DNA of 64,000 bases from a virus, in the IMG/VR virus record IMGVR_UViG_3300042878_001023, positions 57,858 to 121,857 of that record; one strand, given 5' to 3'. Numbering within the stretch: the stretch's first letter is position 1; each line of letters opens with the position of its first letter. Position numbers and translations under genes: made by a program. The notes under the pieces were generated by a model. It was given only the letters and a program-made list of their open reading frames with translations. It did no database searches and had not been told where the DNA came from. Below, in pieces: positions 5,625 to 48,792 of this stretch.

Positions 5625-5837
5625 TTATTTTTTAATTGTGTTCACATATCTGTTTGCACCCCATACATTTTTTTGTACAGTTAGTGTTGGTGAACCTGTT
5701 GTAGTAGTTGTTGTAGGTTTAGAAGTTAAACCTTTTTCATAAAATGATATGCAGTTTGTACAACAAGCTTTACCATCTCTAGCAGTTTTTCTTTGGCATC
5801 CGCAAGATAGTCTTGCACCACAATTTGAACATGTCAT
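5625..5837 (-). CDS. Small zinc-ribbon-like Cys-rich protein
   Basis: This 70-aa protein has CSNCGARLSCGC and CCTNC motifs in the first 30 residues, consistent with metal-binding knuckles, then a short Thr run and a basic tail. It sits 6 bases after the Cys-rich 525-aa gene in the same operon and may be a virion-associated small protein. Function unknown. Confidence 0.65.
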   Translation of the reverse strand: MTCSNCGARLSCGCQRKTARDGKACCTNCISFYEKGLTSKPTTTTTTGSPTLTVQKNVWGANRYVNTIKK

Positions 5838-5860
5838 AATAGTTAGTTTTTAAATTAGTA

Positions 5861-6430
5861 TTAACAGTTTTTACATTCAAATTTATTCAAAAGTTTTAAA
5901 GCATAGTTATATAATGTCATACCTTTTTGAGATTCATGACAAAATTCTACTTTAGACTTTGCTGCATCAAGATACATTTTAATCAATCTTAATCTTTCTA
6001 GCCTTTCTTTAACCTTAGCTGGTGGATCACATGCAGCAACTTCTAAGCTACATAAGATTTTTTCATATTTGTTTAATGCTTTTGAAATTCTTAAATGATT
6101 GTACTGTACAAATACTTGATCATTAGGAGAAACACTGTAGGTAATGTTATATACACCATCCGGTATATCAGAATATGTACTTCCGCAACCTTCTTTTTGT
6201 ATAGCTAAATCACAAGCTGTAATATTTGTATGACCAAATTCTACAAAGTCTTGTGTCTTTGTTGCACTTAGTTCTACGGAATGAGCAAATCCTGGTACAC
6301 CAATTTGTAATTTAGGACACAGTATTGGAATACTTGGATTACTTGTCTGATATATACTTGTATCAAATATTTTCAATACACAAGTATTCATAACAGTTGG
6401 GACTTCTAAACTTAATACATGATTTGCCAT
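5861..6430 (-). CDS. Conserved tail-module protein
   Basis: The 189-aa protein has an N-terminal beta-rich part (about residues 1-115) with scattered cysteines and a helical C-terminal third ending in a CKNC pair. It lies directly downstream of the 529-aa putative sheath/tube gene and its terminator. The arrangement of a beta domain and helical tail in a tail operon suggests a tail structural component. I do not recognise a named family. Confidence 0.65.
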   Translation of the reverse strand: MANHVLSLEVPTVMNTCVLKIFDTSIYQTSNPSIPILCPKLQIGVPGFAHSVELSATKTQDFVEFGHTNITACDLAIQKEGCGSTYSDIPDGVYNITYSVSPNDQVFVQYNHLRISKALNKYEKILCSLEVAACDPPAKVKERLERLRLIKMYLDAAKSKVEFCHESQKGMTLYNYALKLLNKFECKNC

Positions 6431-40906: not shown

Positions 40907-41519
40907 ATATATTATATTTAGATAGGTCTGGATATTCTAATTCCAAATCTTCATTGCTTATCTTACTACCATCACCATTATAAAACTGACCCATTAGTTG
41001 CAAACCTTTTGCTGCTATCTCTGGCATCATATAAAAATTCCAACCTAGCATTGTAAAATCATCTTCTAAATAAGAACATTCATCTCTACCACTAAATCTA
41101 GCTTTTTTAAACCAAAGATATGCCTCATAGTTATCAGTAAGAATTGCACCACCTTTACCAAGTTTCAAATGCTTATATGGACCAGTAAAGGAAACACACA
41201 TATGACTTCCTGGAATATACATATCTGCTGTAAAGCGTAAAGCTGAATCCCATACACATGTCGGTCTCAATTGGTAACATCCTTTTATTTTTACCCCCGG
41301 TACTTCAACAAACTTAACCTTACCCCCAGCATGTTTTATTTCACATGGAACTGATGGGTATGTTCTATTAGGAATTTCTATTTCCATATTATGTATACCC
41401 TCAAAATACAAAGCTAGAAATAAAGCATTACTCATATTATCTATAGCAACCACATAAGGAGCCCCTGTGTAATCAGCAATTTTCTTTTCAAACTCAACAG
41501 TTATTTTGTGAGGATTCAT
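40896..41519 (-). CDS. DegT/DnrJ-type sugar aminotransferase, short
   Basis: The 207-aa product matches the DegT/DnrJ/EryC1 family: 'FEKKIADYTGAPYVVAIDNMSNALFLAL', 'FTGPYKHLKLGKGGAILT' (PLP-binding Lys in 'KHLKLGKGG'), 'MMPEIAAKGL'. Full-length members have about 370 aa, so this is a shortened version, perhaps missing the C-terminal domain. It would convert a keto-sugar to amino-sugar. Coupled to the acetyltransferase and glycosyltransferase. Confidence 0.75.
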   Translation of the reverse strand: MNPHKITVEFEKKIADYTGAPYVVAIDNMSNALFLALYFEGIHNMEIEIPNRTYPSVPCEIKHAGGKVKFVEVPGVKIKGCYQLRPTCVWDSALRFTADMYIPGSHMCVSFTGPYKHLKLGKGGAILTDNYEAYLWFKKARFSGRDECSYLEDDFTMLGWNFYMMPEIAAKGLQLMGQFYNGDGSKISNEDLELEYPDLSKYNIYVS

Positions 41520-42301
41520 CTTAGTTTTACAAGTTTAATATCACGTATGAGTTCATGATATGTTTTTTCAACATTATGTATATATTCTTTTTCTGGTAAG
41601 GCTATATATTGTTTGAAATAATTTATATAATTTTCTTTTGACAAGAACCTTTTAGGATAATGATACAGCTTGTATTCACCATTACAAATTTTTAATTCCT
41701 TTATTGCATTATGTAAATTTAAACCTTGTGTTGTAATTATATTATGTCCACCACCTGTAATTTCAAAATTCATGTTAGACTTCAACATACATGGCTTATT
41801 ATATAAATAGCCTTCCTTATCTGTTTCTTTACTGATTGCATATTTCATTGACTTTACATCAACTGTAGAATCTTGTGTTTCATTATACATATTATACCCT
41901 TCAAAAACTATTACATCATAAGGTTGAATATCTACTAAATCCTTTTCCCATACATCTACTAACTCATCATGATCCACAACTATAACCCAATCAGCTGTAG
42001 AGTTTCTCCAATATTTATCTCTAATAGTATTTATTTTTGTAATATGTGGGGTTGCTTTAACAGCCCAGTTTGGGACATCTACTGCCCACTTCAATCTATC
42101 TTCAGTTGATAAACAATCATTTGTTTGTTCTATATCAACAACATTGCAACCCATGTTCCTACAATAGGATGTAGTGTTGTCACTTGATCCATCATCATAA
42201 ACATTTATCACAACATCCGGAAAACGTTCTCTATAATGCTCAATAAAAAAAGGCATGATGTACATGCTATTAAATGTAATTGTGAATATCTCAACTTTCA
42301 T
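41516..42301 (-). CDS. Family-2-like glycosyltransferase
   Basis: Start is placed at the Met giving MKVEIFTITFN (42301) because the longer ORF would run through the promoter and operator-like palindromes. The product has an N-terminal 'VYDDGSSDNT' (GT2 nucleotide-binding motif) and 'VIVVDHDE' (DxD-like) at about 110-117. It probably transfers the modified amino sugar onto a phage or host acceptor. It overlaps the next gene by 4 bases. Confidence 0.75.
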   Translation of the reverse strand: MKVEIFTITFNSMYIMPFFIEHYRERFPDVVINVYDDGSSDNTTSYCRNMGCNVVDIEQTNDCLSTEDRLKWAVDVPNWAVKATPHITKINTIRDKYWRNSTADWVIVVDHDELVDVWEKDLVDIQPYDVIVFEGYNMYNETQDSTVDVKSMKYAISKETDKEGYLYNKPCMLKSNMNFEITGGGHNIITTQGLNLHNAIKELKICNGEYKLYHYPKRFLSKENYINYFKQYIALPEKEYIHNVEKTYHELIRDIKLVKLR

Positions 42302-42305
42302 GTAA

Positions 42306-42336
42306 CAAATATAATATTCCCCCGGCATATTACCAA
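42306..42336 (-). promoter_or_regulatory. Promoter of the sugar operon
   Basis: Minus strand: TTGG at 42333-42336, 19-20-base spacer, TATATTTG at 42306-42313, then ATG 5 bases later. Fits the Bacteroidota -33/-7 pattern and implies a nearly leaderless transcript. Confidence 0.55.
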
Positions 42337-42358
42337 GTGGTAACTTACCCCCTGGTAA
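42330..42358. promoter_or_regulatory. Tandem TTACC-N4-GGTAA palindromes (operator candidate)
   Basis: Two 14-bp palindromes, TTACCAAGTGGTAA (42330-42343) and TTACCCCCTGGTAA (42345-42358), repeat with a 15-base period and overlap the -33 box. Typical of a dimeric repressor operator pair. Alternatively, they are coding for the upstream part of the longer glycosyltransferase ORF. Confidence 0.5.
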
Positions 42359-42425
42359 CATTGCTCTGAGAGATATAACTCTATTTAGGTATTTGGGTTT
42401 TTAGTATGTAATAGTAGGTGGTGAT

Positions 42426-42473
42426 CCCCCTATTCCAAGCCCCCCGGCCCCTGCGCTTCAGCCCCTACCCCCC
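42426..42473 (-). other. G-run cluster (possible G-quadruplex) at divergent junction
   Basis: Minus strand carries G runs of 6, 4, 4, 6 and 5 bases within 48 bases (plus-strand C runs at 42426-42430, 42440-42445, 42448-42451, 42462-42465, 42468-42473). In an AT-rich genome this is exceptional, and it lies between the two divergent arms. It could form a G-quadruplex. Confidence 0.55.
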
Positions 42474-42554
42474 ATGCTTGCTCAACCACATATTTCATAT
42501 GTGAGATAATTATAACATTTTTTCTAGTGAAAAAATGATCAACCCTGCAAGCAT
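42474..42554. other. Nested hairpins in divergent control region
   Basis: ATGCTTGC (42474-42481) pairs with GCAAGCAT (42547-42554); inside are CACATAT/ATATGTG (42487-42503) and CATTTTTTC/GAAAAAATG (42516-42524 with 42529-42537). Three stem-loops next to a G-run cluster suggest a replication origin or regulatory structure. Confidence 0.5.
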
Positions 42555-42575
42555 AATAAATTAAACTAATTTATC
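42536..42575 (+). promoter_or_regulatory. ATCAACC motif copy A
   Basis: TGATCAACCCT at 42536-42546, followed by an A/T-rich stretch ending TTTATC right before the ATG of 42576. One of four such motifs in the first kilobase of the plus arm; the downstream TTATC is 5 bases further than in the other copies. Confidence 0.5.
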
Positions 42576-42812
42576 ATGGAAACTAAATCTTCTGAATTTA
42601 ATAACTTGGTGGTCCAAGTTTTTCAATCCAAAAAATATGACTTCATTTATGTTATCAAAGCTGGAAATAGCTTTTATAACATAACTAAGTCATGCGTATC
42701 TAAGTTGATTCCTTCACCAGGAATCTACAAGATCCGCGCTAAAGCTTATAAGAATGATAAAGGCTATGACAGCCTTTACATTCATACAGCTTTGCTACAT
42801 ATTCCAGCCTAA
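42576..42812 (+). CDS. First early gene, small hypothetical
   Basis: 78-aa basic protein (METKSSEFNNLVVQVF...), compact alpha/beta composition, likely host-takeover protein by position as the first gene of the arm. It is followed by a strong terminator and has its own upstream motif, so it is transcribed alone. No family recognised. Confidence 0.6.
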   Translation: METKSSEFNNLVVQVFQSKKYDFIYVIKAGNSFYNITKSCVSKLIPSPGIYKIRAKAYKNDKGYDSLYIHTALLHIPA

Positions 42813-42831
42813 GCTGGAATATTTTCTTTTT
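42799..42831 (+). terminator. Terminator 1 of the early array
   Basis: 10-bp stem ATATTCCAGC / GCTGGAATAT (42799-42808 with 42813-42822) with CTAA loop and a T-rich tail. Overlaps the end of the 78-aa gene. Confidence 0.85.
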
Positions 42832-42838
42832 TCCCTCC

Positions 42839-42880
42839 TTTTAATCAACCCTTAACATGTATTGATATATATTATCAGAT
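42839..42880 (+). promoter_or_regulatory. ATCAACC motif copy B
   Basis: TTTTAATCAACCCTTAA (42841-42857) with TTATCAG starting 28 bases after the A of ATCAACC. Preceded by CCCTCC. Likely promoter for the 140-nt RNA downstream. Confidence 0.55.
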
Positions 42881-43016
42881 ATGCCAAGTAGTCACAGCAG
42901 ATTCTGATTATTACTCAGCTTCTTGGCCGGAAGCAGGACTACCAATGTAGATGTTGTAAGCATTGAATTAACAAGAAAGACAACATAAAAAGAACTTTGA
43001 TCAAGTTCTTTTTTTT
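42870..43016 (+). ncRNA. Candidate small RNA between motif B and terminator 2
   Basis: About 140 bases with no ORF longer than 10 codons, after a promoter-like motif and ending in a strong terminator. GTAGTC (42890-42895) pairs with GACTAC (42939-42944), enclosing GCTTC-TTGGCCG-GAAGC (42920-42936). A small structured transcript is likely. Boundaries are approximate. Confidence 0.6.
42988..43016 (+). terminator. Terminator 2 of the early array
   Basis: 10-bp stem AAAAGAACTT / AAGTTCTTTT (42988-42997 with 43003-43012), loop TGATC, followed by a T run. Confidence 0.85.
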
Positions 43017-43023
43017 CTTTTCC

Positions 43024-43066
43024 CTCTTCTAATCAACCCTTAATTTAAAATAAAATAATTTATTAA
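43024..43066 (+). promoter_or_regulatory. ATCAACC motif copy C
   Basis: CTTCTAATCAACCCTTAA with the A of ATCAACC at 43032 and TTATTA starting 28 bases later. It lies about 20-50 bases before the start of 43085. Confidence 0.55.
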
Positions 43067-43084
43067 CAACAAAAAACAAGTAAC

Positions 43085-43504
43085 ATGAAAGCAGTTTACA
43101 CAGCTTCACCAAGAAGCAAGAAAGGAAATGTATTTCACATTTACAATGTGGTAGGAACAGTAGCAGAAATTGAAGAGTATAAAAACTCTCCAAATTTCAA
43201 GCAGTATCCATCTGTAGGCCCTAAAGGGGAAATCCAGTTCATCACCAATTACATTGGTATGGAAGATGAAATGAACATGGTGATGAAGAAGGACGGTAAC
43301 TTCACCTTGGATACTGGTAGCTTTAACAAAGATGTAGCAAGACTTAATGCAGTAGCTGAAGCATCCGCTGTATTAGCAGATAAGTTTGCAGACAGATTAG
43401 CTGATAAGCTATCAGCAGGTGTTAGTGCAGTAGCTAAGCGCAGACCAGCTGAAATACAGTTTGCAGAAGAAACTGAAGCTACAGACAACTTAGACAGTAT
43501 GTAG
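43085..43504 (+). CDS. Early hypothetical protein with helical C-terminus
   Basis: 139-aa protein: N-terminal alpha/beta part to about residue 75, then an Ala-rich amphipathic helix (VLADKFADRLADKLSAGVSAVAK) and acidic end. It is monocistronic between motif C and terminator 3, so a distinct early function is likely. No family recognised. Confidence 0.65.
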   Translation: MKAVYTASPRSKKGNVFHIYNVVGTVAEIEEYKNSPNFKQYPSVGPKGEIQFITNYIGMEDEMNMVMKKDGNFTLDTGSFNKDVARLNAVAEASAVLADKFADRLADKLSAGVSAVAKRRPAEIQFAEETEATDNLDSM

Positions 43505-43514
43505 TAAGTAGTAG

Positions 43515-43549
43515 ATAATAGTGACTTAGGTCACTATTATTTTTCTTTT
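43515..43549 (+). terminator. Terminator 3 of the early array
   Basis: 11-bp stem ATAATAGTGAC / GTCACTATTAT (43515-43525 with 43530-43540), TTAG loop, T tail. Confidence 0.85.
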
Positions 43550-43550
43550 A

Positions 43551-43594
43551 CCCTCTTCTGATCAACCATTTATTTAATATAAAGCTTATTATCA
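43551..43594 (+). promoter_or_regulatory. ATCAACC motif copy D
   Basis: CCCTCTTCTGATCAACCA, then TTATTTAATATAAAGC and TTATC 28 bases after the A of ATCAACC. It precedes the large structured noncoding stretch. Confidence 0.55.
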
Positions 43595-43599
43595 AGCTA

Positions 43600-44450
43600 T
43601 ATATTAACTAAATAGTAGTATGTGTTAATGTAATTAACTTTAGTTAGCATTAATAGGTTTGTATTTACACACAGTAGCGTGTATTACCTACTACTTATTG
43701 CTATTTAAGTTGTGTAGTAGGAAGAATAATTCTACTCACTAAACATATATATCTTGGTCTCCACCGTGTGTAGACCTGGCACTTTGCTATTGGTAATCAA
43801 GCAGTTATATTTTTGTAAATTGTGTGAAAATGTGTGATGAAATGGGAAAAGGTGTACTACTCCACACACATTTAAAGGTTCAGACAGTGTAACAAAATGT
43901 AGTAACTACCTGACTACTAAGAATAATATAGCTAGAACATGACTAAGCAGTACCTTGTAGACAACATATTAAGAGTGTCTATACATATATTAATCAGTAT
44001 TACTATTACTATTAGTGTTATCTGCTTTAAGACAGTAAATACTTCCGGAAACTCTCTAAAATCAGTTGTAATATCCTAAACCAATTCATAGTCATTACGG
44101 AGGATAGTAGGATATAACAAAATAACTACATTATTACAACTGAGTACAGAGCTATACTCTTGTCCAAGCAGGTAAGGATGAGCTACCAATAGAAAATAGT
44201 CAGTCTATTGCTGTGGGCACTTAATAGGATGACAACCTACAAGGATTGCAACCTTGCAAGAGTACGAGCCAGACATATAATAGTAAGAGCACTGGTACAT
44301 GAAGTAATTCAGATGTTGATCACAAGACTCTCAAATCTTGCAACTATGAGTAGCTTAATTGGATCTTCTATTCCTGAAACTATAGCAGAAAACATCCTGA
44401 GAAAATGTAAGTATGCTATAGTCAGGTTAAATACAATTAGTAAATAATAA
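43600..44450 (+). ncRNA. Large structured noncoding RNA candidate (about 850 nt)
   Basis: No convincing ORF, but many exact inverted repeats: CCTACTAC/GTAGTAGG (near 43687 and 43723), AAATGTGTG/CACACATTT (near 43827 and 43864), GGTCT/AGACC (43755-43775), GTAGACA/TGTCTAT (43957-43982), TCAGTTGTAAT/ATTACAACTGA (44062-44072 with 44133-44143) enclosing ATCCTA/TAGGAT, CAATAGA/TCTATTG (44187-44210), CAAGG/CCTTG, GTTG+CAAGA/TCTTG+CAAC, and CCTGA+CTATAGCA/TGCTATAG+TCAGG near its 3' end. It follows motif D. A giant ornate RNA is inferred; class undetermined. Confidence 0.6.
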
Positions 44451-44479
44451 TCTAAATAATAATCTCAAAATTTAAAACT

Positions 44480-44683
44480 ATGAAAACAATTAAGTATGTA
44501 ATGTCTATCAGTCTAGGATTAATAGCATTAACCTTTTTAGAAGCAATATTCACATTTGGTAATGCTTTTATAGTAAGTAACTACAACCTGTTTGGTTGGG
44601 TAATTCAAGCTATAGTAATAACATTCACTGTTAGTGCTTCAGTTATTATTTGTAATAACCTGATAAATGAAGGTGATTTATAA
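44480..44683 (+). CDS. Small two-helix membrane protein
   Basis: 67-aa protein with hydrophobic segments about 5-28 and 36-59. Leader AAAATTTAAAACTATG. First gene after the structured RNA region. Possibly an early host-envelope or superinfection protein; unknown. Confidence 0.6.
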   Translation: MKTIKYVMSISLGLIALTFLEAIFTFGNAFIVSNYNLFGWVIQAIVITFTVSASVIICNNLINEGDL

Positions 44684-44703
44684 AACAATTTAAAACAAAT
44701 AAT

Positions 44704-44937
44704 ATGAGCAAAATAGTATTTATTTGGTGGTTACTAAATGGAACAGTAACACCAGCAGGAGAACATGAAGGACACAAGATGTATACTTTGTGGTTCAATG
44801 AAACAAATCAAGTAATTGATTATGCTTACAAAAGTGAAGTAATTAATTACATTGAGACAGGTGTATTTGAATATAATGAATCTCTTGAATTAGATGATGA
44901 AATACTTGATGAAGAAGTATTTTACAGTAAAAACTAA
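44704..44937 (+). CDS. Small acidic early protein
   Basis: 77-aa protein with acidic C-terminal half (ESLELDDEILDEEVF) and an aromatic N-terminal half. No motif. In an operon of small genes. Confidence 0.55.
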   Translation: MSKIVFIWWLLNGTVTPAGEHEGHKMYTLWFNETNQVIDYAYKSEVINYIETGVFEYNESLELDDEILDEEVFYSKN

Positions 44938-44948
44938 AACTAAAAGTT

Positions 44949-45134
44949 ATGATTAACAAAAGAAAAAAGAAAATAGAAAAAGTAGAGGTTACAAAGTTTG
45001 TAGCCTCTTTACCAGGTTATGAAGATTTTGATTATAAACCAATTATGAAAATACATAGCTGGTTTTGGAAAAGAAGTAGTACTGATTATAAAACACATGA
45101 ACAATGGAAGAAGCAGAGATTAAGTATAGGTTAA
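44949..45134 (+). CDS. Small basic early protein
   Basis: 61-aa Lys/Arg/Trp-rich protein (MINKRKKKIEKVEVTKF...). Overlaps the start of 45104 by 31 bases. Unknown. Confidence 0.45.
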   Translation: MINKRKKKIEKVEVTKFVASLPGYEDFDYKPIMKIHSWFWKRSSTDYKTHEQWKKQRLSIG

Positions 45135-47499: not shown

Positions 47500-47878
47500 A
47501 GTTTGTAGTGCCTGTCAAGAAGAAAAAGTTATCTGGAAAAATCATGAAGGTAACAAGTATTGTCAATACTGTTGGAACAAGGTCAAATCAGATGACCCTG
47601 AGTATAAGAATGTTATTCCTAAAATATCCGACAAGAAAAAGAAACAAGATGCTGAGTATTTAAAACTAAGAGCAAGATTTCTTACAGAAAATCCAATGTG
47701 TAATATTAATGTGTCTGGTTGTACAAGAAATGCAACTGATATACATCATACTAGAGGAGGTGAAGAAAGAAGTGTTTATTACTTAATCCAATCAACATGG
47801 CTTAGTTCATGCCGTAACTGCCATCATCATATTCATATGAATCCAGCAGAAGCAAGAACAATGGGTTGGTTGAAATAA
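47486..47878 (+). CDS. HNH endonuclease-like protein
   Basis: 130-aa protein: N-terminal zinc ribbon (CSACQEEK ... CQYCW), then an HNH-type core with 'NPMCNINVSGC', 'DIHHTRGG' and 'LSSCRNCHHHIHMNP', i.e. the His-Asn-His/Cys arrangement. Could be a free-standing homing or recombination nuclease. It overlaps the preceding gene. Confidence 0.75.
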   Translation: MKKLKVCSACQEEKVIWKNHEGNKYCQYCWNKVKSDDPEYKNVIPKISDKKKKQDAEYLKLRARFLTENPMCNINVSGCTRNATDIHHTRGGEERSVYYLIQSTWLSSCRNCHHHIHMNPAEARTMGWLK

Positions 47879-47886
47879 TTAAAAAT

Positions 47887-48792
47887 ATGACTGAAAAAGA
47901 ACAATTTAAAATAATTCAAGATAAGCTAAAGATTGCTCACAAAAGAACAGTAAAGCAAATATTAGCACATAAAGAGCTTTGCGAGGATATTATAAAAAGA
48001 GATGTGATATCTGAACATGAGCTGGTGGAGGAATATGAGATTCCTCAGAGCCATTTGAAAAATTTAAAAACACAAGGTAAAATATCCTTTTTTACTTCTT
48101 CAGGTGAACTAAATAAAACTAACCGAGGAACTAAATCATATTATTTTGTAGATGAAGTAAAAGATTTGTTTGGTTATAACATCCGTTACAATAAATCTTT
48201 TATGTTAAAAAATAACATATTTAGTAAACTTATTGTAGATATTTCAAGTAAACTTCTTACAGAAAAAGAAACTAAAATGTTAGATATGCTTCTTAGACAG
48301 AATGTGTCTATTGAAGAAATTGCTGAAGAATTTTCTCTTAGTAAAGAAAATACAAATCAAATTGTTTCAAAAGCTGCTAGAAGAATGATTAGAAGAATAT
48401 ATAACCTCAAATGCATGTTTGCTGATTATAATACAGCTCTTGATTATAAAACTGAAAATGAATTACTTAAACAACAAAATAAAGAATTATACCGTAAGTT
48501 TTTAAGATATCAAGAAAATCTAGCAAATAAAGAGGCTAACTCTAAGCCAATTATTCAACATTTTATTAAATATGGTTATGATATTAAAGACTTAACTAAA
48601 GAGTTTTTGTTTCATGAACACTTATCTGTAAGAGCTGTTGGATGTTTAAGAGCAGCTAGTATTGATAATATTGAAGATTTACTTTCTTACCATAAATCTG
48701 ATCTTTTAAGATTTAGAAATATGGGTAAGAAAACTTTAGATGAAATTTGTGAGTGGTTAGAAGAAAAATATAACCTAGAATTAAATTATTAA
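47887..48792 (+). CDS. Sigma region 4 - alpha-CTD fusion, transcription factor
   Basis: Start placed at the Met giving MTEKEQFKII. The 301-aa protein has an N-terminal helical/HTH part, a region like sigma-70 domain 4 at about 124-171 ('LTEKETKMLDMLLRQ', 'EEIAEEFSLSKENTNQI'), a coiled coil (about 179-208), and a C-terminal RNA polymerase alpha-CTD-like domain (about 233-298: LSVRAVGCLRAASIDNIEDL, then FRNMGKKTLDEI). The last matches the alpha-CTD pattern 'LSVRxxNCLxxxxI...LGxKSLxEI' closely. Probably directs host polymerase to phage promoters. Fusion is unusual. Confidence 0.8.
   Translation: MTEKEQFKIIQDKLKIAHKRTVKQILAHKELCEDIIKRDVISEHELVEEYEIPQSHLKNLKTQGKISFFTSSGELNKTNRGTKSYYFVDEVKDLFGYNIRYNKSFMLKNNIFSKLIVDISSKLLTEKETKMLDMLLRQNVSIEEIAEEFSLSKENTNQIVSKAARRMIRRIYNLKCMFADYNTALDYKTENELLKQQNKELYRKFLRYQENLANKEANSKPIIQHFIKYGYDIKDLTKEFLFHEHLSVRAVGCLRAASIDNIEDLLSYHKSDLLRFRNMGKKTLDEICEWLEEKYNLELNY

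Follow-up and report, generated by a model that had tools for sequence, protein, structure and literature searches.

To our knowledge, only a small number of structured noncoding RNAs have been described in phages, and the large ones (GOLLD and ROOL) still lack an assigned function. GOLLD is a large phage noncoding RNA, one part of which is conserved and another variable, with no known function, and ROOL is a phage-borne structured RNA that adopts one fold of ~600 nt with many pseudoknots and has no known protein partner (PMC12286853). The PeSLs of T4-like phages are promoter-terminator composites that are reported to be dense in regions of gene shuffling (Arbiol 2010; Comeau 2014, as cited in PMC4503421).

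Here we describe a locus within a 64,000-nt stretch of phage DNA (the window), which corresponds to bases 57858-121857 of an IMG/VR virus record of 121,857 bp. A preliminary description had proposed that positions 43600-44450 encode a single giant ornate RNA of about 850 nt, comparable in size to GOLLD and ROOL. The locus resembles GOLLD in being phage noncoding RNA that is partly conserved and partly variable, and ROOL in being structured phage RNA without a known protein partner. However, neither covariance model matched, even at E <= 10, and the stretch consists of independent ~100-250-nt modules rather than a GOLLD-like whole, with small three-way junctions in series in place of the ROOL fold. 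GOLLD and ROOL form homo-oligomeric RNA cages. They also often, though not always, lie near tRNA islands, and the 64-kb window contains no tRNA (single tRNAs occur in some relatives). The arrangement shares with PeSLs a promoter-like box beside a stem-loop between early genes, and with it a tie to the shuffling of small early genes. It differs from PeSLs because its elements are not dispersed: the boxes occupy three neighbouring places, module B occurs at one locus per genome, and modules B and C appear to be covarying three-way-junction folds with exchangeable inserts.

Layout of the early noncoding stretch

The phage looks like a distant relative of the crAss-like phages: its major head protein shares 28% identity with that of Leptolyngbya phage Lbo-JY46 and 25% with those of two Cellulophaga phages, phi17:2 and phi4:1, and the terminase match with the best coverage is to Crassvirales phage cr111_1. 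As far as 42361 the genes point leftward, and from 42576 onward they point rightward; the GC skew changes sign at 42-43 kb, where the gene directions diverge. A glycosyltransferase family 2 domain was identified in the gene adjoining the divergence point (41516-42361, minus strand; Pfam E 6e-8), and the gene at 47866-48792 weakly resembles RNA polymerase sigma factors (PHROG E 5e-4). The stretch lies promoter-proximal, at the start of the early genes. Comparison with relatives, which were collected by searching with the upstream 139-aa gene, indicates that it is a noncoding composite of separately conserved elements and not one giant RNA. A terminator and promoter-like box (43513-43567) are followed by a clade-specific 5' domain, block A, a degenerate module C, module B and a tail:

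43513..43545, plus strand: intrinsic-terminator-like hairpin AATAGTGACTTAGGTCACTATT with a T-run, which ends the upstream 139-aa gene; 13 pairs in the hairpin scan
43547..43582, plus strand: promoter-like box TTTACCCTCTTCTGATCAACC with TTTATTTAATATAA; three copies, conserved in about 14 distinct relatives
43583..43754, plus strand: 5' domain of unit A; clade-specific, with other sequence in its place in L027, L030, L040, L043 and L074 (alignment)
43755..43812, plus strand: element G (GTCTCCACCGTGTGTAG..TAATCAAGCAGTTA); 49 distinct sequences
43813..44056, plus strand: unit A2, a conserved noncoding block of ~240 nt ending in GACAGTAAATRCTTCCGGAAAC; profile matches in diverged phages
44062..44151, plus strand: degenerate module C, with long arm TCAGTTGTAAT..ATTACAACTGA and then GTACAGAG; near-identical units in relatives
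44155..44264, plus strand: module B, a predicted three-way junction; covariation and a covariance model match
44265..44446, plus strand: tail with hairpin CCTGAAACTATAGCA/TGCTATAGTCAGG (44373-44387/44414-44426)
44447..44479, plus strand: short A-rich leader (taataatctcaaaatttaaaact) common to many early genes of relatives

By BLAST, nearly every relative whose sequence extends far enough keeps the unit at 43583-44062. In L002, L006 and L008 the leader of the next gene stands directly after this first unit, and therefore 44063-44446 constitutes an extra block. Block A on one side and modules C and B on the other thus make up two or more conserved units, each of which is present, absent or swapped independently among relatives. 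The 180-nt tail (44265-44446) yielded no homologue except for its last few bases beside the leader of the following gene.

BLASTN of the stretch against 50,697 phage records gave chance matches only, as did module B. No Rfam 15 family matched the stretch, either at the gathering threshold or, over 42360-45100, at E <= 10; GOLLD and ROOL in particular had no match at the gathering threshold anywhere in the window, and the Rfam models of catalytic RNAs (self-splicing introns and ribozymes) gave no match. Our literature search, which covered a minority of subscription journals and no preprints, turned up no account of these elements. At least two parts of the stretch, modules B and C, are predicted with clear comparative support to be further RNA folds, carried by many members of a family of uncultured phages and present in no RNA catalogue searched. 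The preliminary view of a noncoding, partly structured and previously undescribed phage RNA at this place therefore appears to hold in that form.

The box TTTNCCCTCNTNNNATCAACC occurs three times in the 64 kb (42830, 43018 and 43547; 0.05 copies expected), each time just downstream of a hairpin with a T-run; the boxes at 42830 and 43547 are preceded by terminator-like hairpins that start at 42799 and 43513, the latter spanning 43513-43542. The box is probably a phage promoter. In L002, a promoter box, module B, hairpins, a terminator and the next promoter follow one another without an ORF. The interval 42830-43016 is itself a candidate small RNA unit of ~150 nt, which starts with the box at 42830, contains no ORF and ends in a hairpin and T-run (AAGAACTTTGATCAAGTTCTTTTTTTT). 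It is 75-91% identical, whole or in part, in L004, L007, L008 and L014, and its slot is filled by module B in L002.

No conserved ORF was found in the stretch, in agreement with the preliminary description. The 79-codon ORF (44208-44447) is absent from module B homologues that carry the same insert, and the 46-codon ORF at 43939-44079 is variable at 12, 21 and 16 of 39 sites in codon positions 1, 2 and 3, so that position 2 varies most. We considered a small protein gene, and neither ORF has a conserved frame with third-position variation. A small hydrophobic A2 peptide (LLLL..RQ*), seen by eye in some phages, was rejected because neither its reading frame nor its start and stop codons are conserved.

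Every inverted repeat that we looked up from the preliminary description is present: CCTACTAC (43687) with GTAGTAGG (43714), AAATGTGTG (43828) with CACACATTT (43865), TCAGTTGTAAT (44062) with ATTACAACTGA (44133), CAATAGA (44187) with TCTATTG (44204), TAGGATGACAACCTA (44225), CAAGGATTGCAACCTTG (44240), and CCTGAAACTATAGCA (44373) with TGCTATAGTCAGG (44414). Eight pairs of exact arms of at least 8 nt lie within 120 nt of one another, compared to 2.65 expected, a count reached by one of 200 shuffles; arms of at least 7 nt are not clearly above chance. The stretch folds modestly better than shuffled sequence (z -1.9 on the plus strand, -3.4 on the minus strand) and A2 does not (z +1.5). These values do not confirm high structure throughout. 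Since fold energy alone is not decisive, structure was judged by comparison among relatives. By that measure the proposed stems fared unequally. CAATAGA/TCTATTG and TAGG/CCTA pass, CAAGG/CCTTG is almost invariant, and TCAGTTGTAAT/ATTACAACTGA corresponds to the long arm of module C, but AAATGTGTG/CACACATTT and CCTACTAC/GTAGTAGG are missing from some relatives. The best-supported helix, the closing stem ACTCTTG/CAAGAGT of module B (44156-44162/44257-44263), had not been listed. Covariation in homologues was likewise found for modules B and C, and none was significant in block A.

Module B and its exchangeable inserts

Module B (TACTCTTGTCCAAGCAGG..CAAGGATTGCAACCTTGCAAGAGTA) lies in the extra block, whose 3' half contains these sequences, and is predicted to be a structured RNA, namely a three-way junction with a covarying closing stem:

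44155-44162/44257-44264, plus strand: closing stem P1
44163-44172, plus strand: junction strand TCCAAGCAGG
44182-44186/44213-44218 and 44187-44193/44204-44210, plus strand: stems of the insert
44225-44239, plus strand: hairpin TAGG/CCTA
44240-44256, plus strand: P3 hairpin CAAGG-ATTGCAA-CCTTG

In an alignment of 111 copies (covariance model R1), 99.6% of cells are paired, and six pairs are changed on both sides, in 23 cells (0/500 shuffles). The model recovers the copy in the window's own record (G000:102009-102124, E 1e-15), whose fold energy is unexceptional (z -0.84). In P1, both sides have changed at five of eight pairs, the left side being free to vary and the right side partly fixed by the search pattern; variants include ACTCTCA/TGAGAGT, ACTCTTA/TAAGAGT, ACTCTTG/CAAGAGT and TCTCTTA/TAAGAGA. 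Wobbles in the inner seven pairs are G-U on the plus strand (they would be A-C on the other), and the outermost, doubtful pair includes three C-A cells. The wobbles and the covariation of P1 together argue for RNA made from the sense strand. The window-type insert also covaries: among nine sequences, eight pairs are changed on both sides (0/500 shuffles), two of them in stem 44182-44186/44213-44218.

The P3 hairpin loop reads RUUGCAA in 100 of 106 copies. Rare loop variants change together with the junction strand (GUAG/UUAC in L098 and AUAG/UUAU in L032, compared to GCAG/UUGC), which suggests a pseudoknot between loop and junction; such copies are few, and L107 and L084 keep three of the four pairs. 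A kissing-dimer contact through the UUGCAA palindrome was also considered and is possible, but the junction pseudoknot fits the rare variants better. At the 3' end, a tail of the form A-C-N-A (N variable) has its C in 94 and its A in 79 of 106 copies, with U at -1.

These features recall tRNA and the tRNA-like domain of tmRNA. All 111 copies combine a 7-8 bp closing stem with an abutting 5-bp/7-nt hairpin, and with a junction strand that would contact the loop, and a long insert between, the topology resembles the elbow half of a tRNA. Module B nevertheless has no T-loop consensus (UUCRANN) or 3' CCA, no anticodon or resume ORF was identified in it, and neither ARAGORN nor Rfam called a tRNA or tmRNA at any copy examined. 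Because the T-loop consensus and CCA are missing, we do not class it as tRNA or tmRNA.

The pattern CAAGGRTTGCAACCTTGYRAGAGWA was found in at least 119 IMG/VR stretches and was absent from all contigs of 84,980 species genomes of bacteria and archaea; a P3-region pattern derived from the window with extra flanking bases had no match until it was relaxed to this form. No Rfam family matched module B. The frame hardly varies among 94 distinct copies, and the inserts of the third arm, about 20-160 nt long, fall into 46 clusters at a cut of 72% similarity, below which some of them probably belong together. Of 17 records searched, 15 contain one to three confident copies, always at a single locus, and this clustering led us to reject a mobile inverted-repeat (MITE-like) element. 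The portal protein of each of seven other records tested is 61-83% identical to that of the window, which indicates that carriers of modules B and C belong to one phage family. Genomes with module B are ~115-135 kb long, and in each tested record the module lies 10-25 kb from the portal gene, on the opposite strand.

Modules B and C lie on the sense strand of the early genes. In several phages only ~33 nt separate the end of module B from a start codon, and the module has no constant downstream gene. At diverged loci with a recognisable A2, it follows on the same strand about 160-1240 nt downstream, although these loci were fetched through module B and its presence there is not independent. 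Several close relatives, including L004, L006 and L012, have no copy near block A, and therefore module B appears to be dispensable there. The noncoding array extends to about 1.7 kb in L151 and L168. A recurrent module, CAATAGAAAGGCAGTGATATTCTGCGTATACCTGAGCATGTAGACAAACTGCTC, follows module B in L005, L141, L155, L157, L159, L166, L172, L173 and L179, and modules such as AAGGGATTTTAATGTAGTGTCTTTTATTCCCTT follow it in many combinations. A structured-looking module (ACTCACACTACTGAGTCTGTCACAAGAGTAG..GGGCTTGTGACTTTTT) is found in different places in two relatives (L018:6081-6180 and L027:12155-12240).

Module C and block A

Module C is likewise predicted to be an RNA fold with compensatory changes. 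Its full layout, TGCACCA..CTAC-TTCCCAAGG-GTAG-CAGTTGTAAT..ATTACAACTGAGTGCAGAGGG, is found at many module B loci, and the two modules share a locus in 13 records. In 35 copies, eight pairs are changed on both sides, in 47 cells (0/500 shuffles), and 95.7% of cells are paired, with 12 of the 35 rows shifted in one hairpin of the alignment. The window copy (44062-44151) consists of the long arm and 3' part only, without the CTAC-TTCCCAAGG-GTAG hairpin; this unit is 98% identical in L007, 96% in L018 and 92% in L156.

Block A comprises ~300 conserved nucleotides (~43755-44056). The five relatives with a replaced 5' domain keep this ~300-nt core beside a diverged neighbouring protein, and A2 profile matches (E 1e-13 to 1e-5) occur in phages whose upstream and downstream genes belong to other families. 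A tree-aware covariation test of 17 close-clade sequences found no pair at E < 0.1, using a home-made, tree-based null that approximates R-scape and is not R-scape itself. The top-scoring pairs are allele-linked rather than pairing, helices drawn from averaged pair probabilities partly break in the window itself, and alignments that include diverged members gave no consistent fold. A2 folds no better than shuffled sequence (z +1.48); its role could be that of RNA or DNA, and block A may act as DNA.

Elsewhere, element G is found alone, directly after terminator T-runs, and is therefore possibly a promoter or transcript-start element. It carries a CCAC-NNN-GTGG hairpin in this position in other phages of the family (L184, L092, L116, L151, L094 and L126), and may serve a phage polymerase as a hairpin promoter. 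In L019, an endonuclease VII/HNH-like gene at 5769-6179 (PHROG E 6e-18; Pfam HNH below the cut-off) interrupts element G, possibly as a homing insertion. We rejected it as a sign of an intron, because element G is interrupted in L019 only and no Rfam intron model matched.

Possible roles of the early noncoding elements

We propose that this region forms the noncoding, promoter-proximal portion of an early transcription unit and that its elements are inherited separately. As an account of the whole, to which we give roughly an even chance, it would encode early noncoding RNA domains that are swapped as cassettes, exist as separate small RNAs or 5' leaders, and by preference act in trans. Synthesis would begin early, from CCCTC-box or G-type promoters, and the products would be either stand-alone small RNAs, as the L002 layout suggests, or the 5' ends of early mRNAs. 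The stand-alone layout and the lack of a constant partner gene suggest RNAs that work in their own right, and the position ~33 nt before a start codon suggests that some copies of module B are made as mRNA 5' ends. The closing stem, the 5-bp hairpin stacked on its 3' strand and the pseudoknot could together form a rigid, nuclease-resistant holder, and this frame, perhaps recognised by a common factor, would present an arm specific to each lineage. Since the inserts turn over fast and the modules have no constant partner gene, action in trans on the host, as an early takeover or counter-defence RNA, is favoured over control of one downstream gene. The one observation that points to counter-defence is the fast turnover of the inserts. 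Ranked by probability, an early trans-acting RNA stands first, at about one half, and mRNA processing or stabilisation next.

The latter reading, which is possible though doubtful, treats modules B and C as cis-acting domains of the 5'UTR through which early mRNAs are stabilised, processed or regulated, for instance by serving as cleavage sites of the RNase P or RNase III type that set units apart. Such leaders would account for the placement of module B on the sense strand upstream of genes, for the lack of any terminator between A/C/B and the next gene in the window, and for the likeness of the 7-bp stem, 5-bp/7-nt stacked hairpin, -1 U and A-C-N-A tail to the acceptor/T-arm half of a tRNA. 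They would not account for the inconstant downstream gene or the ORF-less unit of L002; inserts of up to 160 nt are superfluous for a processing site, and ARAGORN and Rfam see no tRNA at module B, whose RUUGCAA loop departs from the T-loop consensus. A more specific form of the trans-acting reading, which we put forward as unlikely overall, is that module B is an undescribed one-locus scaffold, or "display frame", that holds rapidly exchanged trans-acting RNA payloads against host or defence factors. If true, it would be the equivalent, in RNA, of a variable island of anti-defence genes. The nearly constant frame and its roughly 46 insert types point to modular selection on RNA, and the contrast between them offers directly testable constructs.

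Three further explanations compete with trans-acting RNA. The proposal of one giant ~850-nt ornate RNA draws on the size of the stretch and on the order of block A before module B, on the same strand, in those diverged loci that yielded both. We regard it as very improbable, because the distance between the two ranges from about 160 to over 1200 nt, the units are lost or swapped independently, block A has no demonstrable structure and no Rfam model matched at E <= 10. It is also improbable that the elements are recombination cassettes whose promoter and stem-loop homology shuffles early genes, as proposed for PeSLs, with the RNA itself functionless. Modules and neighbouring genes are indeed shuffled independently, and promoter boxes alternate with hairpins, but compensatory changes in modules B and C keep pairing where DNA identity is lost, and copies sit at one locus per genome instead of flanking many genes. 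We see a similarly slight chance that the region is a DNA element, such as a replication origin or regulatory region at the divergence point, with block A conserved as DNA-binding sites. This explanation leaves the covariation and strand-specific G-U pairs of modules B and C unaccounted for, and divergent transcription alone predicts the GC skew flip at 42-43 kb that would otherwise favour it. For block A, which gives no RNA structure signal, the DNA reading may apply. Iteron-like CGGTCA repeats, which are possible origin or regulator sites, lie upstream of A2 in L131, L139, L153 and L185.
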